From a virus, in the IMG/VR virus record IMGVR_UViG_3300030390_000575, positions 1-21,343 of that record: a DNA stretch of 21,343 bases, one strand, 5' to 3'. The position numbers and the translations under genes are program-made. Under the pieces are notes generated by a model. That model made no database searches. It was not told where the DNA came from and worked only from the letters and a program-made list of their open reading frames with translations. This document shows, in pieces, positions 3,011-20,997 of the stretch; the first letter of the stretch is position 1, and each line of letters starts with the position of its first letter.

Positions 3011-4855
3011 ATGAGTAAATATGTATTTGATATTGAGACTAACGGATTATACCCCACAGAGATCTGGATGCTAGTCTGTCAGGACGTAGTGACTGAGGAG
3101 ATCTTCTCCTTTAGTGATCACACAGACAAAGTGCCTAGCATGGCAGAAGGACTTGATTTTCTAAGCAACGCTAAGGTGATTGCAGGGCACAACATTATAG
3201 GCTTTGACCTACCGATCATGAAACGGTTGTTAGGCTGGGAGCCAAACGAAGCTACTCGTGTATGGGACACGTTCCTAATGTCTCAACTATGCCAGTACCA
3301 ACGCCCTCACCTGCATGGTTTAGGCGGTTGGGGTAAGCTGTTCGACTTCGCTAAGGGTGATTACGGTAAGCAAGACAATGCATGGGATGCCTACTCAGAT
3401 GAGATGCTGGAATACTGCATACGGGACGTAGAGCTAAACACATTAGTCTATAACCGTTTATCCAAAGAAGCATCAGCGTTAATGAAGAAAGACCCTATGT
3501 TCCTACAGGCCTTACAGCACGAGCATGACTTCGCTGTAGTGAATGCAGAGATCAATAAGAACGGTTGGTTCTTCGATATGGACAGAGCCCTAGCCTTAGA
3601 GGAAGAGCTACTGGAAAAGATGGAGCACATTGAAGATGTAATTAACCCACAGCTAGGTAACGTAGCGGTCATGAAAGGTAACCGTGAGGTTGATAGGCTT
3701 GTCAAGAAGAATGGCGACTACTACAAGAACGTAACCGATTGGTTCGAGCTTGAGGCTGACATAAAAGCATCTAATGGTAACATCTCAGGGCCATACACTC
3801 GCGTAGAGTTCAAGGCTGTACAGCTAGGTCAGTTAGATCACGTTAAGAAGTTCTTACTAGACAAGGGTTGGAAACCTGATGACTATACCGTTAAGAAGAT
3901 CAATGGGAAGTGGATCAAACAATCACCCAAGCTTACTGAAAGTTCACTTCTGCCCCTAGGAACCCTAGGAGTTCTCATTGGCGACTACTACATGCTACGT
4001 AACAGACTAAGCACAGTAGAGGGTTGGATAGAGAGTGTTAATAGCACAGAAGAGTTCAACGATGGGAGGCTACACGGTTCTATGTTCGGAATAGGTACAC
4101 CTTCGTTCCGATGCAGACATCGTGGTATTGTAAATATCCCAGGGGTTGACTCTCCATACGGTAAGGAACTACGTAGTCTACTTACGTGTGAGAAAGGCAT
4201 GAAGGTTGTAGGTGCTGACTCCTCAGGTAATCAGTTCCGAGGGCTCTGTCACTACATTGGAGACGATACTTTCACTGCACAAGTACTAGCCTCAGATATC
4301 CACGATGTTAATGCAAAGATGCTGGACATCTCTAGGAAGCAAGCAAAGACTTTCATCTACGCTTACCTGTTCGGTGCAGGTATGGCTAAGATCGGTGAAG
4401 CTGTGTCAGGTAAGAAGTCTGCTAAGATCGGTAAAGAAGTAGACGATCTATACAAGAAAAGAATCCCAGGGATTAAGAGACTCAGAGATAGTTTATCTGA
4501 AGAGTTCAAGAGAACTGGTATGGAGACAGGGCTACCCTATATTATGGGTGCTGACGGTAGACGTATTATGGTAGGGTCAGAACATCAGACACTCAACTAC
4601 TTACTACAAACGCTAGAAGGTATCACATGTAAGGCAGCCATAGTGTACGCATCCAAGAAGATTAAAGAGCTTGGTATTAACGCATACCCTACACTGTTCT
4701 ATCATGACGAAATGGTATTCATCACAAAAGAAGAAGATGCAGAAACTGTAAAAGACATATGTATCGAAGCGCTCCGAGAGGCCCCTAAGTCTGTCGGTGT
4801 TATGTGTATGGATGGAGATGGACAAATTGGAGATAGTTATGCTGACGTTCACTAA
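3011..4855 (+). CDS. Family A DNA polymerase with 3'-5' exonuclease (T7 gp5-like)
   Basis: 614 aa, shorter than T7 gp5 (about 704). The exonuclease domain is intact: DIE at 7-9 (Exo I), H60-N with D66 (Exo II), and Y135-x-x-x-D139 (Exo III). Polymerase motif A is D403-SSGNQFR, motif B spans R442 to G457 with K446, Y450 and F454, and motif C is H565-D566-E567. Three positions are unusual. The motif A glutamate (T7 E480, E. coli E710, the ribose gate) is Gln408. The position equivalent to E. coli 762 is Tyr450, as in T7. The tyrosine equivalent to T7 Y530/E. coli Y766 is Phe454. Catalytic Asp403 and Asp566 are present, so it should be active. SD AAGGAAA precedes the ATG. The exonuclease gene overlaps its 3' end. 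Confidence 0.95.
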   Translation: MSKYVFDIETNGLYPTEIWMLVCQDVVTEEIFSFSDHTDKVPSMAEGLDFLSNAKVIAGHNIIGFDLPIMKRLLGWEPNEATRVWDTFLMSQLCQYQRPHLHGLGGWGKLFDFAKGDYGKQDNAWDAYSDEMLEYCIRDVELNTLVYNRLSKEASALMKKDPMFLQALQHEHDFAVVNAEINKNGWFFDMDRALALEEELLEKMEHIEDVINPQLGNVAVMKGNREVDRLVKKNGDYYKNVTDWFELEADIKASNGNISGPYTRVEFKAVQLGQLDHVKKFLLDKGWKPDDYTVKKINGKWIKQSPKLTESSLLPLGTLGVLIGDYYMLRNRLSTVEGWIESVNSTEEFNDGRLHGSMFGIGTPSFRCRHRGIVNIPGVDSPYGKELRSLLTCEKGMKVVGADSSGNQFRGLCHYIGDDTFTAQVLASDIHDVNAKMLDISRKQAKTFIYAYLFGAGMAKIGEAVSGKKSAKIGKEVDDLYKKRIPGIKRLRDSLSEEFKRTGMETGLPYIMGADGRRIMVGSEHQTLNYLLQTLEGITCKAAIVYASKKIKELGINAYPTLFYHDEMVFITKEEDAETVKDICIEALREAPKSVGVMCMDGDGQIGDSYADVH

Positions 4856-5606
4856 CGCAGAGCAGAAAGAAGAGTATGAGTTTGACAAGTGTTTCATAGA
4901 TGCAGACTCAATGTTGTATCGTATTGCAGCAACAGTAAAGTCTGATAGCCAAGCCCAAAGCACCTTTGATCTTGCGCTAAAAGCAGTAATGCGAGACACC
5001 AACAGTAAACATGGTTACGTATCTGTAAAGGGTGACGGTAACTTCAGGCATGATATGGCTGATGATTACAAAGCTAACCGTAGTAAATATGCTATGGACC
5101 CTGACATCAAGCAGAAACTCAACAGCCTCTATGAGTACTGCTGGGCTACTAACTGCGTACCTTCACATGGTTGTGAGGCTGATGATATTGTATCTATCTG
5201 GGCTACCGAAGCAGAAGCTGCAGGGGACTCATGGGTTATCGCTCACGTAGATAAAGATATCGACATGATCCCTGGCTGGCACTACAACTTCAACAAGAAG
5301 ACCCTGTACCACACTGATGAAGAGACGGGGCACTACCTGCTATGCAAGCAATTGCTGACAGGTGATGCTTCGGATAACATCAAGGGGCTCAAGGGTATCG
5401 GACCTAAGACTGCAGAAAAGATCTTAGCTGGTGTAGCTAAGGATGATATGTTAGATGTAGTCAGGTCCACTTGGCGAGATAAGCACCCTCTAGAGTGGCA
5501 CTCAAAGCTACAACTGTGTTTCAACCTAATCTACATGCGTAGGGAATTTGATGGGTTTAATGTGTTAACAATTGAGGAAGTCTACGGGGAGAGTAAACTA
5601 CGATGA
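4839..5606 (+). CDS. 5'-3' exonuclease / flap nuclease (T7 gp6-like)
   Basis: 255 aa from ATG 4839, which has GGAG at 4829-4832; longer in-frame starts back to 4797 lie deeper in the polymerase gene and lack an SD. Metal-binding acids follow the FEN/5'-exonuclease pattern: D21-A-D23, the DDYKANR helical-arch motif at 75-81, CEADD at 112-116, DKD at 138-140, and TGDASDN at 174-180. The last leads into a helix-three-turn-helix (GLKGIGPKTAEKIL, 183-196) that grips DNA. In T7 the equivalent enzyme removes RNA primers and digests host DNA. It overlaps the polymerase by 17 bp and the next gene by 4 bp. Confidence 0.93.
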   Translation: MLTFTNAEQKEEYEFDKCFIDADSMLYRIAATVKSDSQAQSTFDLALKAVMRDTNSKHGYVSVKGDGNFRHDMADDYKANRSKYAMDPDIKQKLNSLYEYCWATNCVPSHGCEADDIVSIWATEAEAAGDSWVIAHVDKDIDMIPGWHYNFNKKTLYHTDEETGHYLLCKQLLTGDASDNIKGLKGIGPKTAEKILAGVAKDDMLDVVRSTWRDKHPLEWHSKLQLCFNLIYMRREFDGFNVLTIEEVYGESKLR

Positions 5607-6100
5607 GTACACAAGACTTAGGACACTGGACATACCATCTAGAACCCTTTGACCCTGACGAATACTTCGGGTTTATCTACATGATCTCCTGCACCTACCC
5701 TGAGGAACCCAAAAGGTACATAGGGCGTAAACAATTCCATATGTACAGCAAAGGTAAAGAAAGGAAGGTGTCCAACTGGAAGAAGTACAGTAGCTCGTCT
5801 AAGCACATCAATAAGATGATAAAAGACTTCGGCACTGAGTTCTTTGAGTTCGAGATACTACAACTGTTCGAGACCAGAGGTGGTCTATCTGCAGGAGAAG
5901 TTAAAGTCCAATGGGACCTAGACGTACTCACAGAGAAATACCCAGACGGTACACCAGTGTTCCTTAACAGGCAGATAGGTGCTATCAAGTTCATACCCAA
6001 GGAGTCAGTCAATGGCCAAACCCGAGAAAGAATCTCAAGCATCTCCGATGGAATACGAGAAGAGCTTAAGGTCAAAGAAGCAAGCGAGACTACAACGTAA
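5603..6100 (+). CDS. Putative GIY-YIG-like endonuclease
   Basis: 165 aa. GFIY at 23-26 and YIGRK at 39-43 match the GIY-YIG two-strand signature. Further along are W59-K-K-Y-SSSS, a segment common in phage members of this group, a conserved-type Glu (E99) in the SAGEVKVQWD helix, and Asn122. These fit the expected catalytic Tyr/Arg/Glu/Asn set, though I cannot confirm the fold. It could be a free-standing homing-type nuclease or a host-DNA-degrading enzyme like T4 endonuclease II. The start is in an ATGA overlap with the exonuclease. Its last 89 bases are also read in another frame by a small basic gene. Confidence 0.7.
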   Translation: MSTQDLGHWTYHLEPFDPDEYFGFIYMISCTYPEEPKRYIGRKQFHMYSKGKERKVSNWKKYSSSSKHINKMIKDFGTEFFEFEILQLFETRGGLSAGEVKVQWDLDVLTEKYPDGTPVFLNRQIGAIKFIPKESVNGQTRERISSISDGIREELKVKEASETTT

Positions 6101-10511: not shown

Positions 10512-10547
10512 GGATCACTCAGATACTTGAGTGGTCCTATTTTTTTT
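10512..10547 (+). terminator. Intrinsic terminator for the rightward replication operon
   Basis: A 10-bp stem, GGATCACTCA at 10512-10521 with TGAGTGGTCC at 10528-10537 (one G-T pair), with loop GATACT, is followed by TAT and a T-run to 10547. It overlaps the stop codon of the convergent minus-strand gene, so rightward and leftward transcripts overlap in antisense by several tens of bases. Confidence 0.85.
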
Positions 10548-13500
10548 ATCTTAGTAAGCTTAAGACATCCGAACTAAGTCCGATATCATCTGCGGCATAC
10601 TGTAGGACTTCCTGTCCTGTCCTTTCCCCTTCTTTAACTTTACTTATAATGCTCTTACGTCCAGCTTCAGATCTCTCCATGAGCTTACTGTAGTTAGGTT
10701 TAAAGTTAGGATAGATGTGCCTAGCTAAGAGACGTTGTGCTTGCTCTAATGCTTGGTACGTTCTGGCTTCGTTTATAACTACACCCTTATCATCTTTGTG
10801 CTGCTGGAGTTCTTCTCTAAGTAGCTTAGCTTGATTGACAACACTAGCATCATCCCCAAAGTCCTTGAAAGTTAATAGGGATACCAAGTGATCAGCTAAC
10901 ATACCATGCTCAGCCTCGTTGATAACACCAGTCCTTTCCTTTGCAAGTTCTCTAAAGATCGCTGGGCCCTCTGAAGCAGCCTTACCTACGCTGTCCCCGA
11001 AGTCCTTAAAGATCTGAGCCTTAGATGCCATGTCAAACCAGTTCTTATTGATAGCTTCCCTAGCTACATGCTGAGAACCTAAGTCTGGGATGATAGCGTC
11101 AAAGATACCTAGCAAGAATGGTTGCCCACCTACTGCCGAAGACATCTTCTTCCAAGAGTCACCACTAAAAGTCTTAACCATAGCAGCTCCATCTAACGAC
11201 TGAGCCATTGAAGGTCCAACCTGACCCCTTGCCTGACCACCTGATATGCCACCACGAGAAGCTAAAGGTGTTGTCCTTGAGACTTTCTCTTTAACTAACA
11301 TAGATGATGTGCCACCAGAACCAGAAGTAGACAGCTGGCCCCTTAGGGTTTCCGCTAGCTTCTTGTTGCCTTGTCTGTCGGCCTTAGCTATCCTGCGGTT
11401 AAGGCTATCGTCACGCTTACCTTGCTTACCTGAGGTCTTATCAATAGGCTTAGTTGTTTTAAGGTCAGAAGTAGCACCAGTATACTGAGTCTCCTTTCCA
11501 ACAAAGGAAGTTGAACCTCCTGCTGGATTGTTAACCGAGATAGCTATGCCATATAACTGACCGTACTCAACACCTTCCTTAAGTAGACCCTGCATTTCCA
11601 TAACATTCGGTCCCAAAGAGAACTCAAGTGCTTGGTGACGTACACCTTGCAGGAAGTTAGCAGCTGCCACTACGCCACCCCCATTTGGGAAAGCCTCAGC
11701 GCTTGCTAACAAGACAGGGTTAGATGTGATTGTATCGTAGACTGAATCAATAAGGTTATGCGCCTCTTGTCCGTATGCAAACGTAAGCATTGGGGACTTT
11801 CGGAAGTTAGCCTTGTCTTGGTTCGCCAGTTCAATCAACTTACGTAAGGCAGGTATATCTTCCTCAGAGTACTTATGCTCTTCTTGGAACTCCTTATTGA
11901 ACATAACTAGGGATGACACCTCATTAGATAAGTTCTGCTTTAGCATCTGGTCAAGAGTGTCCCTAAGGTCTCCTTTGTACTCAGAGTCAATAGACAGGTC
12001 ACCCGTGGAAGGTAGGTCTTTCCAGAACCCTAGGACTTCGTTAGCACCCTCCGCTCTCAGTACGCCAGTTCTATATTGCTGGTCTTCTAGTCCGAGAGAT
12101 AGGACAAGTGTAGCTAGTCCGTTGGAGATTCCATCGATCTCTACAGGAGAGACAGATAGGTGTGCAGATGTACCTTCTATACGTGCAGCTTCATAGTCTG
12201 ACAGAGCCATTAGGTAGTCGAGTACTTGGATAGAGTTGTGGTGAGACTTAGGTTGAACAGCTAGGGCCTCAAGGAACCTGTTTAATTCAACGTCTGCTGC
12301 CATTCCCTCTGGCCTTACATCAACTAGACCTTTGATACCCTTAAGTCCCTGAGGCGTAGCTTGTAGTCCTGCTAGTGCAGCTTGTGCTTTGTCCCTATCA
12401 AACTCAGACAGATACTTCTTGAGCTTAGTGCCCATCGCAACGGCACCTTTGTAGGTAGGACTGTTAGATCTGATGTGACCCAGTGCAGTCGAAAGCTGAG
12501 CTTCTGGCTTAAGTTTCCCGCCATTGAATAAGATAACACTTACGTTCTCTAAGAAGTTAGTCTCAACCTGTGAGCCACCCAAGGGTTTAACTGCGTACTT
12601 AACACCAGAACCTACTGCTTGACGCATGAGGTGGTGTTGTTGGAACGTACCCTGTTGTCCTGTGTGGAGTCTCTGGGTTCCCGTCTGTGTGACGAAGGTG
12701 TGGTAGAAAGGTTTGTCACCTTGGTTAAGGATAGTAGTTACAACCTCTAAGCTTTTATTAGCTTCCTGAAAGAACAATGCCCTCATAGAGTTAGTTCCAG
12801 TATCAGGGTTAGTCCCAGTCTCTGAGAACCTAGCTATAGATTCATTCTTAGCTGCAATCTCCTCAAGCAAAGCGAATTGCCTAGGACCGCTAGCAGTCTC
12901 AGCCTTCTCCATCAACTGATCTCTCTCAGCTACCATACGTGGTGCGATAGCTTGTATCTTAGCGATACTCTGAGGACCTATACCAACCATATTGTGTGCG
13001 TAGTTGTGATCCTTACCTAGTCCTGCTTGCGGTGAAGTGCCGAAGGCAGATACACCAAGCATTAGAATAAGGTCTCCACGTCTCTTATCGATAACGATAG
13101 GTACGCTAGACATATTATCCTTAGCCTCCGCTAGTGCCTGAGACTTAGGGTTAGGTACCACACCAGTTGAAGTCTTTAGTAGACTGTTCTCGTACTGGTA
13201 TGCACCGTCTGTTGGTTTAGTTTGTAAGAAGTCAGCCTTGAAATCAGGGACCTTGACTCTGCTCTTATCTAAAATCAACCGACCTTCTGGTGACAGTTCA
13301 TAAGTCTTAGCTCTACCTTCTGCCCAGTTACCTTCATTTACAGTGACCATGTTTGGTGCGATGCTCGCATAAAGGTCAAGAATAGAGTGGCTAACAGCTT
13401 CAAAAGCTGCAGGGGTAGTACCCTTGTAATCCTCCAAGTATGAATCAGTTGGTTCTCCATTTCGGTATGCCCTATCTCTTCGGATAGTTTGGAATGCCTT

Positions 13501-14376
13501 ACGCCCGAAAGCCTGAGGTGAGTTATCAGGTCTGTCGTTAGCTGGGTTGTTCATATCTAACAAGGCTTCAGCATCAGACTGTTCGACTTCACTTGGCTTG
13601 TTGTACAGGTAGTCTTCCACGGTAGCTGCAATATTCGGAATAGCTCTTGGGTCGATTATTGTAGGCTGTACGTTAGACAGCTCGGAGTAGTTAGATACCT
13701 TACCTTCGGAGTCAACCTTAACTTCGGACGCTTTAAAGTTAGGGTTACGTATACCAATACCTAAGCCCTTTGGGTGTGTAATAATGTTAGTCCGGTTAGC
13801 TTGCAGTGGGAGGTCCTTATGCATACGTACAAAGCCTTCAGGGTTCTTCTCCAGTTCCTGTGCCCCAGCAGCCTCAAGACCCTCTGAGTACTCTTTAGTG
13901 TTAGGCTGGAAGTTATCACCGAAGGATGCTGCATAAGCTACAGGTGTAGTTACTGGAGAAAAGAATTGACTCTCCCCTGCCATACCCCTGAACCTCTCAG
14001 TAGTCTCTTGCCCTAACTGAGTTTCCATGTTAGAGAGATCAGCCTCAATCCCTGAGGCTTCTAGCGGAGCCTGAACTCTCTCCGCTTCTCTCTGTGCTAA
14101 CTCTTCCTGACCTTCTGGGGGTACACCCACCTCCTCCTGAGAGGGTGCCTCCAACATAGCTTCACCCATTGTCTCAGGTTCTACTTCATTGTCCCAACCT
14201 GAGTAGTCCTCTTCTGCAATAGCAAGGGACTCAACGGGTGTCTCAAAATCAGGGGCAGCTATGACATCACTCTGTTCTTCTTGAAACGCATTTGCCTCGA
14301 CAGCTTGCGACATCATCTGCTCTTGCAGAAGTTGTAAATCTTGAGCGGATTGCCCCTGTATTTTAGCTCTAGCCAT
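10546..14376 (-). CDS. Putative virion RNA polymerase (N4 vRNAP-like single-subunit RNAP)
   Basis: 1276 aa. An acidic, low-complexity N terminus (about 1-130) is followed by a large region with no motif I know. From about 560 it carries T7-superfamily RNA polymerase motifs in order. A likely TxxGR-type motif is TGTQR (565-569) with QQG soon after. Motif A is EIDGISNG with Asp748. Motif B is K860-SPMLTFAYG with Tyr868, the same 8-residue K-to-Y step as T7 and N4. A block PSMAQSLDGAAMVKT (1055-1069) parallels T7 PNFVHSQDGSHLRKT. Motif C is LLGIFDAIIPD with Asp1093, where T7 has LIHDSFGTIP. The A-to-B distance (112) is close to that I recall for N4 vRNAP (D559 to K670, 111). It is the last gene of the leftward late block, as in N4, so packaging and injection are likely but inferred. 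SD AGGAGAA precedes ATG 14376. Confidence 0.82.
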   Translation of the reverse strand: MARAKIQGQSAQDLQLLQEQMMSQAVEANAFQEEQSDVIAAPDFETPVESLAIAEEDYSGWDNEVEPETMGEAMLEAPSQEEVGVPPEGQEELAQREAERVQAPLEASGIEADLSNMETQLGQETTERFRGMAGESQFFSPVTTPVAYAASFGDNFQPNTKEYSEGLEAAGAQELEKNPEGFVRMHKDLPLQANRTNIITHPKGLGIGIRNPNFKASEVKVDSEGKVSNYSELSNVQPTIIDPRAIPNIAATVEDYLYNKPSEVEQSDAEALLDMNNPANDRPDNSPQAFGRKAFQTIRRDRAYRNGEPTDSYLEDYKGTTPAAFEAVSHSILDLYASIAPNMVTVNEGNWAEGRAKTYELSPEGRLILDKSRVKVPDFKADFLQTKPTDGAYQYENSLLKTSTGVVPNPKSQALAEAKDNMSSVPIVIDKRRGDLILMLGVSAFGTSPQAGLGKDHNYAHNMVGIGPQSIAKIQAIAPRMVAERDQLMEKAETASGPRQFALLEEIAAKNESIARFSETGTNPDTGTNSMRALFFQEANKSLEVVTTILNQGDKPFYHTFVTQTGTQRLHTGQQGTFQQHHLMRQAVGSGVKYAVKPLGGSQVETNFLENVSVILFNGGKLKPEAQLSTALGHIRSNSPTYKGAVAMGTKLKKYLSEFDRDKAQAALAGLQATPQGLKGIKGLVDVRPEGMAADVELNRFLEALAVQPKSHHNSIQVLDYLMALSDYEAARIEGTSAHLSVSPVEIDGISNGLATLVLSLGLEDQQYRTGVLRAEGANEVLGFWKDLPSTGDLSIDSEYKGDLRDTLDQMLKQNLSNEVSSLVMFNKEFQEEHKYSEEDIPALRKLIELANQDKANFRKSPMLTFAYGQEAHNLIDSVYDTITSNPVLLASAEAFPNGGGVVAAANFLQGVRHQALEFSLGPNVMEMQGLLKEGVEYGQLYGIAISVNNPAGGSTSFVGKETQYTGATSDLKTTKPIDKTSGKQGKRDDSLNRRIAKADRQGNKKLAETLRGQLSTSGSGGTSSMLVKEKVSRTTPLASRGGISGGQARGQVGPSMAQSLDGAAMVKTFSGDSWKKMSSAVGGQPFLLGIFDAIIPDLGSQHVAREAINKNWFDMASKAQIFKDFGDSVGKAASEGPAIFRELAKERTGVINEAEHGMLADHLVSLLTFKDFGDDASVVNQAKLLREELQQHKDDKGVVINEARTYQALEQAQRLLARHIYPNFKPNYSKLMERSEAGRKSIISKVKEGERTGQEVLQYAADDIGLSSDVLSLLR

Positions 14377-14379
14377 TGT

Positions 14380-17300
14380 TTATTCTCCTGTCCAATAGTT
14401 TGTTATTCTATGTTTTAGTGGTGATAGTAGAGGTGTTAGGCTTAGTGCAGCTTTAGCTGTAGTAGTCCCATCATCCTCAGTCATTGAATCTCCCAGCTTG
14501 TATACGTTCTTAACTATACCAAATGCTGGTGCTTCCCCTGAACCTGCTTCCCACATATTCATAGCCATACCTTTGTCTCTCCCCTCATACAAAGGGAACA
14601 CATTGGCTATAAGTCTCTCAGGTGTTCCTAATAGTCCTGACGAGTACAAAGCCCTCAGGTATTTTTTTTCATCTGTTAAGTATGGGGATGACCCACCGAA
14701 CTTAATGTAGTCCTTTATGTACTGAGCAGCGTAACCTAGCATAAGCATAGACATCAAACCTGCAAAGGTTGAGTACTTCATCCCTGGGGTTCCCTTAGCA
14801 ATAGTCTTCCAGATCCTAGGGATATGGTTAGCCGTAAACTGAGATGTGAATCCTTGGAACTGCATAAACAAACCTAGGTGTGGGTTGCTGTAAGCAAGTG
14901 GCCTACCCATAGCATTAGGCATAGGTACTGCACCATTGATAAAGTTATACAACCCGTTATCAAACTGCTTAGCCCACTTAGCGAGGACTTCTTCGTTATT
15001 CGGGTCAGCCTTAATCTGCCTTGAAAGGTTGAGCATCACGGACACAGGCATACCAAACTCCTCAAGAGTCTGCCTTGCCTCCATAGACTCGTTAGTTTCC
15101 CTACCACTAGTGTTACCCTCTATCTTATCTAAATTACTAGTCAAGAAGTCATTGAAAAGTGAAGCCCTAACTGTACGAGTTGCGTTAGTGACACCAGTTA
15201 GACCTATAACCTTAAAGAAAGTATCCATAGCTTGGTTAGCATTGGCATCTCCTGTATCGGATACACCAACTAGCGTAGCCTGACCTGTCTTTTGTGAACC
15301 AGACATACCCACTCGACCCAAAAGGGCCTTAGGGTTCTCGATGCTTATGTTCCTAGCATCTTGACCTACCCTCTTCTTACGAGAGTTAATAGCTGAGTCT
15401 AGTACACTACCCTTAGTTTTAAGGCCAGACTTTTCTAACTTAGAGTTCACACCAAAAACCCTACCCATCTCCTCTACGTAGCTGACTACCTCTTTGCCAA
15501 GTATAGCACCGAGAGAACCTACGTTCTCATTCAAGGATTTCATAGGTACGTTCATAGGTGCTAGTGCAAACTCAACCAAAGACATAGGTGCAGCCAGTGG
15601 TAGCATCGTTACAACACCGAAGAGTGTGAGGTTCTTCTGGATACCCTTAGCCATATCGCTTTCCAGTCTCTTATAGTTACCTGAGTCAGCGTTTATAAGG
15701 TCCCTTAGGTTCATAGCTAAGTCTTCCACTATTACATCTGCGTCTGGGTCTCCGTTGGACTTAAGCTCTGAGTGTACTTTATCTAACATGTTACCAAGAA
15801 GCTTATTGTTTTTTCCAATAAACTTAAGAGATCCCATGTAACGAGCAGCACCTTTCATACCAGCTTCAAGGTTATCGAAGATGTTATTGCTAAGGAACTT
15901 ATCAAACTCTTTATTGTCTGATATATCTAAGCTTCTCTTCTTGTAACCTGCAGGGTTCAAACCCCCCTTAGTTAAGTCAAAGGCATCATCAAGCATGCTA
16001 GCATCAGCATTGTCTAGGATAGTATCCGTGACTGCGATTGCATCATCTCGGCTCAGCTTCTTGTGGGTAACCAAGAGGCTAACGAACTCAGCCTTATTAG
16101 CCTGTATCACGTTCTTCTCAAAAGCCTTGGCTCTGAATACGTGATCCTGCAGCTTACCGATAGCCTCTTCCCCTGCCATAGATTGCCTAGCGGTGATATT
16201 GTTGTACATAACATTATCCACATCGTATAGCTCAGAGACCGTAAGCTTAAGAGCCTTGGTGTCGTCTCTGTACTTAGCTGGGAGGTTATCCCAGTCAATG
16301 GAAGCTATAACTTCTGGTCCCGTCATGTGCTCAGCGTTGCCCTTCCCTTTCCTAGTCAAAGGTTTAATAACATCTCTGTGGAAGTCGTATATCTTAGCAG
16401 ACACTTCAGACCTCATTTTACCGTAACCAGTCTCTTTGGTATTGAACCTACCAAGGGTGGGCATTATCTCAGTAATAGATTCCTCAAATAAAGTATAAGA
16501 TGCAACCTTGTCTGTGTGGAAATCTACTCCACCGTGAACTTGGTTCTTACGACCACCAAACATATCGTAGATTACACGGGAAGTCTTACTCTTATTTAAG
16601 AGATCAGTAGTCATACGGGTATCTAAGGCAGTTCGGAAAGCAGACATAGGGTCTTTAGCGAAATCACCTAACCAAGACATGCCGCCCTTAGCTTCCTTAC
16701 GAGATTGAGCGCGATCAGCTTGAGCCTCAAAGCTCATATCAACAGCCTCGTCGTTCATCATCCCATCGTACTCGCTACCAGTAGCCCCTGTGGTCGGCCT
16801 AGCTCTAGTCCTACCTGTGTTAGCTCTAGCATCCATGTGCTCTTCTTCGAGAACAGCGTCAAGATCCCTGACATAACCACGCTCACCAGTTTCCTCGGCT
16901 TTCCATGCAGTTGCTGCATTATCAAACCTACCATCGTAATCACGGTTGGCAACCTCAGCGTCCCTCCAAGCCCCTGCATCGTATACAGAGCCTGGGGCAG
17001 AGAAAGCTGCACCCATAGTTCCTCCAGCAATAGCTGAGTTTATTAGCCTATTCTCCAAAGTGTCCCAATCCCAAGTCTTCTCAGACCCCATTACGGCAGC
17101 TGTGTAAGCTGTAAGCTCCTGAGCCATTTCAGTACTTCCCTCAAAGGCTGCACCTGAAGTGACCTTCTTAGAGAAGTCCTTCAGCATCCTAGTCTTAGTC
17201 AGCTGCTTCGCCATAAGCCCATCTATATCCTTAGCGTAAGACACTAACTCTCTCTTGGACAATCGTGTTAGGGCAAGCTCAGCTTGAGCCTTAGTTAGCT

Positions 17301-19110
17301 TACCTAGGCTTAGTGCGTCACCTGCTTGGTCACCCAACACATCCGTGATAGCCTTTAGTGATTGACCTGAGGCTTTCATCATCTTATCAACAACGAGATC
17401 CTTAGCTTCACCGTTAAGAACACTAGCAGCACCTACGGCCCCCTTGAGACCAAAGCGATCCAGTGCTGTATTCATGACACCAGCGACCATAGCTACTGCA
17501 TAATTCTTATCTTGTATAGCACCTTCCATTTCGTCCAACACTAAACCAGTGTGCATAGCCAATGGTGCAGTTAGGCTGAGTCCACCTGTTAGTGGTGATG
17601 CCGCTACGGCTGCTACGGTCACACCCATAAAGGGTATGGACATAGCTAGGTTGTTAGTTACGTACTCAGCTATTTCAGGTATGCTCGTCCAGTTAACATC
17701 TTTGTAGTCCAGACGTACCTTAGGTAGCTCCATAATTGTTTTCTTTCTAAAATCTACTGCTCCCTGCCAAGCATCCCTTGTGTCATCAAAGCCAGCCACA
17801 TCGGCAACCATAGAGCCCACTTGAGCCATAGAGTTCTTCAAAGTAACAGCAGCGACATTGAATGATTGGGAGAATGGAGTCTTAGACCTGTTGTCTAAGT
17901 ATGCACCCTTGTTCCTGAGAGTAACGCCAGAGTAGAAGTCTTCCATACCTGAGTAGTGTGACTCATCAAGAGCCATTTGCTTAGGCACTATCTGCCCTCC
18001 GCTCTCAGCAGTCTCCGCTTGACGTATAGTGTCAGCAGCTTGCTCATAGTCAGTCATAGGGGTCTTAGGGTCTCTGAGTTCTCTGTCAAGCACACCTGAC
18101 ACATACAGGTCATACTGATCTTCAGACATAGAGTAGTCAGACTTACCAAGAAATGACGGAGCTGCAATACCAGAACCTATTAACGCATCAGAAAGTAGTA
18201 CACCCTCAGCGTTCATTAAGTCTCCTTTCTTACGACCGTACCCAGCATCTTCGTCAGTGATAACCGCATTCGTAAAACCACCTTTCTCGATAACCATTGC
18301 TACTGCATCTGTAAACTCTTCTCCACCTTGGTCACCCCTCTGGAACCCACCTTTACGTGAGACCTTAGTTGTTTCCGGTGCATCAAACCCTCCAAAACGT
18401 ATGCTCTGTCCGGTCCTCTTATTGATCATGGTATCACCATCAATCAACTTATACTCTGAGTCTCCGATATCTCGGCTTGACTTAAGGGGTGCAGCCCCAG
18501 AAACTGCGTCTCCCTTTACAGGTGCAACCACTTCAGACTCCCCAGTTGTCCCTTCGGTACCCGATGCTTGTCCTCTAACAGCATCAGATAACCTCTTCAT
18601 TCTTTTGTGTACGCCAGAGCCTGACTTTATAGAGTCCCGATAGTCCTTGTTGTCAAGGAATTCATCTGCGGCTAGGTCGTACTCACCTTCGTTAAGGAGC
18701 CTTAGGAAATTAGGTGATCCACCTAGGTCCCCACGGTACTCGCCCTGCACTAACTCAGCTTGCAGGGTTTCTGGTAGTGAATCAAAAGAAGGCACCCGTC
18801 CCTTAGCTCTCTCAACGTGATGTTGAAATGCTGCTTCAAATCCCTTCTCAATCCACTCACCAGTTTGCCCAACACCTTGAGTAGTGATACCCTTAGTGTC
18901 AGTGTACGGAGTAGCAACGTACCCCTCTTCCTCTACCACTCGTTGCTCTGAGAAAGTAAGGGGTCTCCCCAAGCTCTCAGAGACTTTAGAAATTGCGTCA
19001 GAGCCGTAGTATACATCTTGCGCTACTGTTGGCTCATCTGCGGTTTCAAAGGTCGGGTCGAACTCAGTTCCATTTAAGGTGTCTACCTGTTCATCTGTAA
19101 TGTCGTTCAT
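14380..19110 (-). CDS. Giant internal virion (ejection) protein with lysozyme and SNase-like nuclease domains
   Basis: 1576 aa. Residues about 45-180 form a T4-type GH24 lysozyme domain. Glu62, Asp71 and Thr77 keep the exact E-x8-D-x5-T spacing of T4 lysozyme (E11, D20, T26), followed by QGVGQTG. Residues about 216-320 match staphylococcal nuclease: IDGDT (Asp226), R238, D243-x-x-E246 and YGR (R293), all the known metal and catalytic positions. The remainder is long and helical, with hydrophobic stretches at about 484-520, 1157-1187 and 1449-1466. Near the C terminus is an MQFQGFTSQF segment like that of other large podoviral internal proteins. The architecture suggests a T7 gp16-like protein that is ejected, opens peptidoglycan and forms part of a trans-envelope conduit. 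The SNase-like domain is unexpected. SD AGGAGAAA precedes ATG 19110, and the stop is 3 bases before the next gene. Confidence 0.85.
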   Translation of the reverse strand: MNDITDEQVDTLNGTEFDPTFETADEPTVAQDVYYGSDAISKVSESLGRPLTFSEQRVVEEEGYVATPYTDTKGITTQGVGQTGEWIEKGFEAAFQHHVERAKGRVPSFDSLPETLQAELVQGEYRGDLGGSPNFLRLLNEGEYDLAADEFLDNKDYRDSIKSGSGVHKRMKRLSDAVRGQASGTEGTTGESEVVAPVKGDAVSGAAPLKSSRDIGDSEYKLIDGDTMINKRTGQSIRFGGFDAPETTKVSRKGGFQRGDQGGEEFTDAVAMVIEKGGFTNAVITDEDAGYGRKKGDLMNAEGVLLSDALIGSGIAAPSFLGKSDYSMSEDQYDLYVSGVLDRELRDPKTPMTDYEQAADTIRQAETAESGGQIVPKQMALDESHYSGMEDFYSGVTLRNKGAYLDNRSKTPFSQSFNVAAVTLKNSMAQVGSMVADVAGFDDTRDAWQGAVDFRKKTIMELPKVRLDYKDVNWTSIPEIAEYVTNNLAMSIPFMGVTVAAVAASPLTGGLSLTAPLAMHTGLVLDEMEGAIQDKNYAVAMVAGVMNTALDRFGLKGAVGAASVLNGEAKDLVVDKMMKASGQSLKAITDVLGDQAGDALSLGKLTKAQAELALTRLSKRELVSYAKDIDGLMAKQLTKTRMLKDFSKKVTSGAAFEGSTEMAQELTAYTAAVMGSEKTWDWDTLENRLINSAIAGGTMGAAFSAPGSVYDAGAWRDAEVANRDYDGRFDNAATAWKAEETGERGYVRDLDAVLEEEHMDARANTGRTRARPTTGATGSEYDGMMNDEAVDMSFEAQADRAQSRKEAKGGMSWLGDFAKDPMSAFRTALDTRMTTDLLNKSKTSRVIYDMFGGRKNQVHGGVDFHTDKVASYTLFEESITEIMPTLGRFNTKETGYGKMRSEVSAKIYDFHRDVIKPLTRKGKGNAEHMTGPEVIASIDWDNLPAKYRDDTKALKLTVSELYDVDNVMYNNITARQSMAGEEAIGKLQDHVFRAKAFEKNVIQANKAEFVSLLVTHKKLSRDDAIAVTDTILDNADASMLDDAFDLTKGGLNPAGYKKRSLDISDNKEFDKFLSNNIFDNLEAGMKGAARYMGSLKFIGKNNKLLGNMLDKVHSELKSNGDPDADVIVEDLAMNLRDLINADSGNYKRLESDMAKGIQKNLTLFGVVTMLPLAAPMSLVEFALAPMNVPMKSLNENVGSLGAILGKEVVSYVEEMGRVFGVNSKLEKSGLKTKGSVLDSAINSRKKRVGQDARNISIENPKALLGRVGMSGSQKTGQATLVGVSDTGDANANQAMDTFFKVIGLTGVTNATRTVRASLFNDFLTSNLDKIEGNTSGRETNESMEARQTLEEFGMPVSVMLNLSRQIKADPNNEEVLAKWAKQFDNGLYNFINGAVPMPNAMGRPLAYSNPHLGLFMQFQGFTSQFTANHIPRIWKTIAKGTPGMKYSTFAGLMSMLMLGYAAQYIKDYIKFGGSSPYLTDEKKYLRALYSSGLLGTPERLIANVFPLYEGRDKGMAMNMWEAGSGEAPAFGIVKNVYKLGDSMTEDDGTTTAKAALSLTPLLSPLKHRITNYWTGE

Positions 19111-19134
19111 ATCGACTTTCTCCTGTTGTTTATA

Positions 19135-20997
19135 TTAAAGTAATCGTTGCCGATCAACCATAGCTCTTAGCTCAGGGGGTGACAAGCTTTGAACCCAAGC
19201 TAGTTCTGGAGACATCATCTCCGACTTGCCTAAATTCTCTGACTCCTCTGAGGCTGCTTCCCACCTTGCCTTGAAACCTGAACCTACGTTCTGGCTAGCA
19301 GTCTCGTAACCCTTGAGGGCTAAGATCCAAACATCAGCTGGCTTATCGCCCTTCACACCTGTAGCAATTCTTTTTATCTGACTCTCAGTAGTTGTGTACG
19401 CATTCATTCCTGAATCTAAATCAGTACCGTGTACCTTGAATACGTTATCCCGTAAGGAACCACCTTGCTTCATTCTCTTTTCCATAATTTCTCTGTTGTA
19501 GAAACCAACAAAGTCTTTACTTCCATTAGCAGATCCGTCAGCAAGAGCGTCAACCCACTTAGCTGCAGTCCTGTTAAACACAGTTCTTCCAGCTGGAGTA
19601 TTGAGATCAGCATTTGGGTATCTAGCCTGAATAGCTACGAGTGCTTCTTCCATTACGTGTGGTTGTGTACCTGCGTTAATACGAGACAAGCTTGCACCCT
19701 TATCCTTAGGGTTCATGTCTTCGTTAGCATCGTACTCTTCAACCTTATCATTCTTAAGTTGAACTAGAGTAGCAGAGCCTGAGTCCCTGTACTTCTCAAG
19801 AGCTTCGGATCTAGTCTCTCCACGGCCTGCGCTATACCTACCACCCTGCATTTGCATGAGGGCTGCGGCACTAACACTAGGTACAGCTACACCATCAGCA
19901 CCAGCGAATACGCTAGCATCATTAGGGTTGAAAGTCTGTCCATCTTTAGACCAAGTACCTTTTATATTTGTCTTAGTCTGAGAGTCATATATTTCAGTAC
20001 CATTTTTGTAGTCAATCGAAGATGCATCTCTGGCCTTAGCTATGCGAGTTGCTTCGGACTTACCGAAGGCTCTTGCGTTAGCTGCATCGGTCTGAGCTGT
20101 AGCTGCTTCCTTTCTCCACTCATTCTCTAGTACTTGAACAGCTAAGGTTGCACCATCATAGCCCATAGCCCTTGAAGCGGCATATGCAAACAGTGATCTA
20201 CGTATAGCAGGGTCTTCAAAGCCTCCCTTAACTGTACCCTTGATCCCACCCCATAGCTTCTGTAAGAAGTTAGGGTCTTCGGGATCACCTTTAGCAATCT
20301 CTTCATCAACAACTGCAGCATTCTCAGCTCCAATCTCAACAGCAGAAGAGTCAGCTTCGTCAGCAGTAACAATCTCTACTTGAACTAAGTCTTCTTGCGG
20401 CTGTAAGGGTTCAAGCTCTACTTGAGGTATATCCCGTTCTAGTTGTGGGAGTGTACCTTGTAGCTCTTCCTGCTGTGGAGTTAACATGCTTGGTACATCT
20501 ACCTGACCAGCTCTTTCCTCAGCAGCCTTAGCTTCCACTTCCCATTCCATTTTCTTAACAGCAGCTTCACGCTCCTGATTGACAAATGGGTTTAGTTCTG
20601 AGATAGAGTTCTGGTTGTTCTTGTTCTTGAACACAAGGTCGTCAAACTCCTTAAGCTCCTTAGGTGTTCGTGGTACTCGCTCTGTAGGTACCATCTGAGG
20701 GCTATCCTGTATTGCAGGTACTGAAGGTACGTGACCTAAACCACCGACAGCCCCTGAAGTGTCAATGAAATCTGACACAGCCTGTGGAGCTAACGGGTCC
20801 TTAGGGACCTCTGGGAACATACCGGAAAAGTAGTCACCCTGAGGTGCAGCAACGGGAGCTTTAGGGGGCTGTGGGATATTACCGCCACTGCCAGCTATCA
20901 AAGGTACTGGTCTAGACTGTACACCTTTCTCCTCGTCATCTATGTTACCGATAAGACTCATGACACCATCAAACATTGTTTTAAAATCATTAGCCAT
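19135..20997 (-). CDS. Probable internal virion protein, 620 aa
   Basis: A Pro-, Gln- and Glu-rich, probably disordered N-terminal half (to about residue 240) is followed by LQKLWGGIKGTVKGGFEDPAI. Next comes an Ala-rich helical region (RRSLFAYAASRAMGYDGATLAVQ, then long helices with many Ala and Glu to about 330). The C-terminal part is helical and lacks a known motif. No signal peptide. The DPAxRRSLFAYAAS pattern resembles internal core or ejection proteins of podoviruses, where a short glycine-rich segment leads a helical bundle. Its place just upstream of the lysozyme-nuclease gene matches T7 gp14/gp15 relative to gp16. SD AAGGGGAAT precedes ATG 20997. The assignment rests mostly on context. 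Confidence 0.6.
   Translation of the reverse strand: MANDFKTMFDGVMSLIGNIDDEEKGVQSRPVPLIAGSGGNIPQPPKAPVAAPQGDYFSGMFPEVPKDPLAPQAVSDFIDTSGAVGGLGHVPSVPAIQDSPQMVPTERVPRTPKELKEFDDLVFKNKNNQNSISELNPFVNQEREAAVKKMEWEVEAKAAEERAGQVDVPSMLTPQQEELQGTLPQLERDIPQVELEPLQPQEDLVQVEIVTADEADSSAVEIGAENAAVVDEEIAKGDPEDPNFLQKLWGGIKGTVKGGFEDPAIRRSLFAYAASRAMGYDGATLAVQVLENEWRKEAATAQTDAANARAFGKSEATRIAKARDASSIDYKNGTEIYDSQTKTNIKGTWSKDGQTFNPNDASVFAGADGVAVPSVSAAALMQMQGGRYSAGRGETRSEALEKYRDSGSATLVQLKNDKVEEYDANEDMNPKDKGASLSRINAGTQPHVMEEALVAIQARYPNADLNTPAGRTVFNRTAAKWVDALADGSANGSKDFVGFYNREIMEKRMKQGGSLRDNVFKVHGTDLDSGMNAYTTTESQIKRIATGVKGDKPADVWILALKGYETASQNVGSGFKARWEAASEESENLGKSEMMSPELAWVQSLSPPELRAMVDRQRLL

Follow-up and report, generated by a model that had tools for sequence, protein, structure and literature searches.

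What would a nuclease cut if it entered a cell together with the genome of the phage that made it? This question is raised by a 21,343-nucleotide stretch of viral DNA (IMG/VR record IMGVR_UViG_3300030390_000575, hereafter the window), in which a gene for a protein of 1576 amino acids (aa) carries a segment resembling staphylococcal nuclease (SNase). An initial annotation had placed the whole SNase catalytic set in positions 18151-18468, which correspond to residues 215-320 of the protein. This assignment holds, spacing included: the segment contains IDGDT (D224 and D226), R238, D243, E246 and Y291-G292-R293, and a family profile, an AlphaFold2 model and Foldseek agree with it. The relevant features are listed below.

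10546..14376, minus strand: downstream ejection-type gene, 1276 aa, 0 Cys
14380..19110, minus strand: candidate lysozyme-SNase ejection protein gene, 1576 aa (open reading frame and translation)
18076..18483, minus strand: predicted SNase domain, residues 210-345, confident core about 218-314 (profile against PDB, AlphaFold2, Foldseek, VIA-align, family alignment)
18232..18234, minus strand: R293, equivalent to SNase R87 (R in 52/52; preceding Y in 10/52, G in 39/52)
18373..18375, minus strand: E246, equivalent to SNase E43, the general base (52/52)
18382..18384, minus strand: D243, equivalent to SNase D40, a metal ligand, relaxed in the family (D34 E7 N6 S4 T1, n=52)
18397..18399, minus strand: R238, equivalent to SNase R35 (52/52)
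18433..18435, minus strand: D226, equivalent to SNase D21, a metal ligand (52/52)
18571..19011, minus strand: lysozyme domain, residues 34-180 (phrog_37474, Phage_lysozyme, E62/D71/T77; triad also kept in relatives L042 and L044)
19135..20997, minus strand: upstream ejection-type gene, 620 aa, 0 Cys, no Pfam hydrolase found

Assignment and conservation of the SNase domain

The Pfam SNase model PF00565 gives no match to the window sequence alone at E<=1 or at E<=10, and a PF00565 scan of seven genomes was likewise negative. The sole single-sequence hint of an SNase in the window protein is a match to NCBIfam NucI (E=0.016). Because the window sequence by itself lies below detection, a family was built, and it is the family evidence that decides the identity of the domain. 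When a profile of five sequences (the window protein, gp34 of Roseobacter phage CRP-7 and three IMG/VR sequences) is compared with 177,635 PDB sequences, staphylococcal nuclease ranks first (E=0.006) with its catalytic residues aligned. A search with the DNA pattern RFGxxDAxETxK located a third lineage of the family, and an alignment including this lineage yielded 141 relatives in viral contigs, 80 of which were kept. A scan of bacterial genomes with the five-sequence profile revealed no relatives. The pattern matches in L034 and L035 were rejected as look-alikes, as they carry RFGGKDASET in the middle of the protein and lack the DxDT motif.

Profile and structure searches for an SNase had been set beforehand as the test of the assignment, and both returned one. 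When 51 non-redundant domains are combined into a profile, the PDB search yields SNase with E=1.2e-5, and 60 of the 60 matches listed are SNases. PF00565 itself recognises 9 of the 51 family members, with a best E value of 1.4e-6. An AlphaFold2 model computed from the alignment of 51 relatives (pLDDT 80.6, pTM 0.71) has the element order b-b-b-a-b-b-a-a, which is the SNase topology with its OB fold, and the best Foldseek matches to this model are SNases (E=9.1e-5, probability 1.00). An earlier AlphaFold2 run on four sequences was set aside (pLDDT 46). Thus, residues 210-345 almost certainly form an SNase domain. VIA-align superposes about 100 residues on SNases with Z scores of 8.2-8.7, and its top row is the Tudor domain of Qin (Z 9.2). 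Since this Tudor domain scores level with the SNases, the fold by itself is no proof of catalysis.

The pattern of conservation is more informative on that point. Among 52 non-redundant sequences (<90% identity, mean pairwise identity 35%), only six of the 108 domain columns are invariant, namely D224, D226, R238, E246, R293 and G303, and a separate MAFFT alignment (n=51) gives the identical six. Four of these columns correspond to the SNase catalytic residues D21, R35, E43 and R87, and the probability that all four would lie among the six by chance is 2.8e-6. The window domain has all five catalytic residues, including D40, and D224, located two residues ahead of D226, is likewise invariant (52/52). 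Loss of the catalytic set in homologs, which the initial annotation had allowed for, is not what we find: D226, R238, E246 and R293 are each present in 52/52 sequences. The D243 column holds D in 34/52, and E, N, S or T in the other 18/52, suggesting that metal use may differ in this third of the relatives. The invariance of E246 favours catalysis over binding, as a general base is dispensable for binding. Across 16 close pairs, dN/dS values of 0.02-0.31 indicate purifying selection on the domain, which occurs in all relatives whose N-terminus is readable. An apparent loss in L100 was rejected, for the domain lies upstream in another frame, past a reading-frame break. Judged from these sequences, the SNase domain is likely to be catalytically competent.

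A patch of fast divergence surrounds the start of the SNase gene, from about -1000 to +500, in the pairs L096/L102, L059/L061 and L086/L106. Both the SNase domain and the C-terminal portion of the upstream ejection gene lie in this patch, which is clearest in L096/L102, where nucleotide identity is 0.56-0.77 between stretches of about 0.85-0.95. This patch suggests local recombination or rapid change. The SNase domain and the C-terminus of the upstream protein show a partial rank correlation of 0.32 (given the gene body), whereas the adjacent linker scores 0.36 and the downstream protein 0.18. The notion that the upstream C-terminus is a built-in inhibitor co-evolving with the SNase was dropped, as linkage explains the correlation equally well.

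Genomic context and the exchangeable wall hydrolase

The protein had been proposed to be of the ejection type, and several characteristics of the locus bear this out. Three consecutive large genes oppose the replication genes in the window, and CRP-7 shows the same convergent layout. In every non-redundant relative, the SNase gene is followed by a large gene (about 1,100-1,680 aa), and most genomes examined have a wall hydrolase in the SNase gene or in the gene upstream. The C-terminal part of the window protein matches phrog_6958, a 'virion structural protein' (E=5.3e-20), as well as CRP-7 gp34, and is homologous to proteins annotated 'virion structural protein' in the LUZ24-like phage tf (gp51) and in KPP25. 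In addition, there is no cysteine in the 3,472 aa of the three ejection-type proteins of the window, whereas its DNA polymerase, exonuclease, primase-helicase and RNA polymerase contain 38. The large tunnel proteins gp15 and gp16 of phage T7 also have no cysteine, in contrast to the majority of T7 virion proteins. The absence of cysteine fits a protein that unfolds, passes through a narrow tail and refolds in an oxidising compartment. A search of the PDB with the full-length family profile did not hit any ejection protein of solved structure, whether T7 gp14-16 or another. From its homology and context, the 1576-aa protein is very probably delivered by the virion. The initial annotation knew of no standard T7 or N4 ejection protein with an SNase domain, and the motif is indeed absent from T7 gp14-16.

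Some further observations concern these genomes. The cysteine-free run of three genes (10546-20997), which recalls T7 gp15 and gp16, might provide a simple signature for ejection proteins. Elsewhere in the window, positions 22-360 and 357-686 code for tandem paralogous small proteins that both begin MTKRIID.MTAEQI, an endonuclease VII gene occupies 2584-2961, and a SegE-like GIY-YIG endonuclease is encoded at 5603-6100 between the exonuclease and primase-helicase genes. In Pseudomonas phage KPP25 (L125; NC_024123), a gene of the structural block (3772-4944) bears the label 'photosystem II D1', which is presumably mistaken.

The lysozyme domain reported directly ahead of the SNase is recovered as well. 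Residues 34-180 match phrog_37474 (E=4.6e-32), an N-terminal fragment of the protein matches Phage_lysozyme (E=3.2e-4), and E62/D71/T77 follow the catalytic pattern of T4 lysozyme. Among the sequences examined, this fusion is limited to the window, L042 and L044 (L043 and L045 being near copies of L042), which a quick tree of the C-terminal part places in one fully supported group. The lysozyme-SNase order thus recurs within this clade, and elsewhere the SNase occurs without a fused lysozyme. In relatives that do not have the fusion, the upstream gene often holds a wall hydrolase whose type varies: Phage_lysozyme2 in L055 and L047, SLT in L085 and L083, Phage_lysozyme in L088 and Pesticin in CRP-7 gp35. 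No upstream wall hydrolase was detected by Pfam in L050, L105 or L094, and none in the upstream gene of L042, as in the window.

Because the type of hydrolase varies and the SNase is present in all readable relatives, the hydrolase is exchangeable and the nuclease is not. The lysozyme fusion is an event of one clade; by contrast, an SNase near the N-terminus of the ejection protein is found throughout the family. As a separate observation, the upstream ejection genes of L055, L047, L085, L083, L088 and L003 carry four Pfam hydrolase families in a cassette that is otherwise conserved.

Possible sites and targets of the nuclease

The reading we prefer is that the protein belongs to a podovirus ejectosome and would carry an active SNase-type nuclease as its N-terminal module. 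Judging by its homologs, the protein would be packed in the virion, exit through the tail before the DNA and refold in the envelope like T7 gp15 and gp16. The nuclease domain, which is N-terminal and adjoins a wall-degrading domain in the window clade, might then reside in the periplasm and could be activated there by seawater calcium. There it would cut nucleic acid outside the phage conduit, either the incoming DNA of a rival phage or other DNA or RNA at the entry site, and the phage's own DNA would be sheltered inside the tunnel during cutting. A study of the phi-M1 ejectosome describes ejection proteins that reassemble as a trans-envelope tunnel, reports that such a tunnel shields phage DNA from periplasmic host nucleases, and notes that the N-terminal domain of T7 gp16 degrades the wall (PMC11440229).

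We give a probability of roughly one half to an active nuclease that is delivered by the virion and acts in the envelope, whatever its target. Taken separately, the periplasm is slightly favoured as the site of action, and non-phage nucleic acid is a more tentative choice of target. Rival DNA would suit a periplasmic site, but presence throughout the family is more readily explained by a core delivery or entry function than by a weapon against rivals, which weakens the proposal with regard to target. Confinement of the nuclease to the periplasm by calcium, which we infer from the SNase family, is plausible, with the caution that a third of the relatives have a residue other than D at the calcium-ligand position D243.

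The strongest alternative is that the nuclease is active in the cytoplasm, where it would cut host DNA or RNA early in infection to stop host expression or to recycle nucleotides. The invariant catalytic residues accord with this role as they do with action in the envelope, and family-wide presence would be expected of a core takeover function. However, a free non-specific nuclease would attack the entering phage genome, and a shallow search identified no modification or inhibitor gene. The window phage already has endonuclease VII and a 5'-3' exonuclease, and the absence of cysteine is better suited to the periplasm. We consider a cytoplasmic role unlikely.

The domain might instead take part in genome delivery by nicking or trimming the phage's own DNA as it is packaged or ejected. 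Universal conservation does suggest a delivery step, and the genome of the LUZ24-like phage tf has annotated nicks. However, tf gp51 carries no SNase motif, so the tf nicks do not need an SNase, and enzymes of this type are largely non-specific with regard to sequence. These points make cutting of the phage's own DNA less probable than a cytoplasmic role.

Slightly less probable again is that the domain serves the ejectosome as an OB-fold clamp, which would hold DNA or RNA and have no catalytic activity. OB folds often bind nucleic acid, the Tudor domain of Qin tops the VIA-align comparison, and D243 is relaxed. However, binding alone does not demand a general base, and E246, D226, R238 and R293 are retained in all 52 sequences while almost everything else varies. 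A chance motif with no SNase at all, to which the Pfam negative for the single sequence and the partial look-alikes L034 and L035 might seem to point, is refuted by the invariant catalytic columns, the family profile, the PF00565 matches of family members, AlphaFold2 and Foldseek.

If the protein is an envelope-acting nuclease, as we prefer, it may be a fixed component of DNA injection in a large group of marine podoviruses, delivered to the envelope by each virion, with infection or the exclusion of rivals depending on its activity; we offer this extension tentatively. The fact that the SNase is never lost in a large and deeply diverged marine group in which the hydrolase is swapped implies a selected step of nucleic-acid cutting at genome entry, and such a step is absent from current models of phage DNA delivery.

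Comparison with known systems

The enzymes known from podovirus ejectosomes either break down the cell wall or, in the case of N4-like phages, carry out transcription of the genome. Literature searches (open-licence papers) found no paper describing an SNase in phage ejection proteins. A protein of 1,342 aa from an uncultured Caudovirales phage (UniProt A0A6J5NQ80), which was found by fold, carries the database label 'Staphylococcal nuclease (SNase-like), OB-fold' and may be a counterpart. Given that label, the SNase domain call in isolation is not wholly new, whereas its family-wide conservation and ejectosome context appear to be. The fold is known and the machine is known, but the combination is apparently undescribed.

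Staphylococcal nuclease (thermonuclease; PF00565) shares with the family its fold, element order and residues D21/R35/E43/R87, and the window domain also has the D40 equivalent. However, that enzyme is free-standing and secreted, whereas the domain described here is the N-terminal part of an ejection protein of 1,300-1,600 aa. Most family members are too divergent for the Pfam SNase model, and the D40 position is relaxed in the family. T7 gp16 is likewise large, free of cysteine and of the ejection type, and has an enzyme at its N-terminus, but this module is a lytic transglycosylase rather than a nuclease (joined by lysozyme in the window clade). Pseudomonas phage tf gp51 shares the C-terminal region, a similar gene position and the lack of cysteine, but is 1,021 aa long and, unlike the window protein, has no SNase motif.

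A further counterpart is CRP-7 gp34, which belongs to the same family and has the same catalytic set within the same convergent gene layout. It has no lysozyme, and a lysozyme-like Pesticin domain is located in the neighbouring gp35. The gp34 protein is annotated as hypothetical, and the CRP-7 paper (PMC6918029) nowhere uses the word 'nuclease'. CRP-7 is the only cultured carrier found in this large group of mostly uncultured ocean viruses. Point mutants and the cultured CRP-7 make approachable the question of how a phage carrying such a nuclease would keep its own DNA from being cut.
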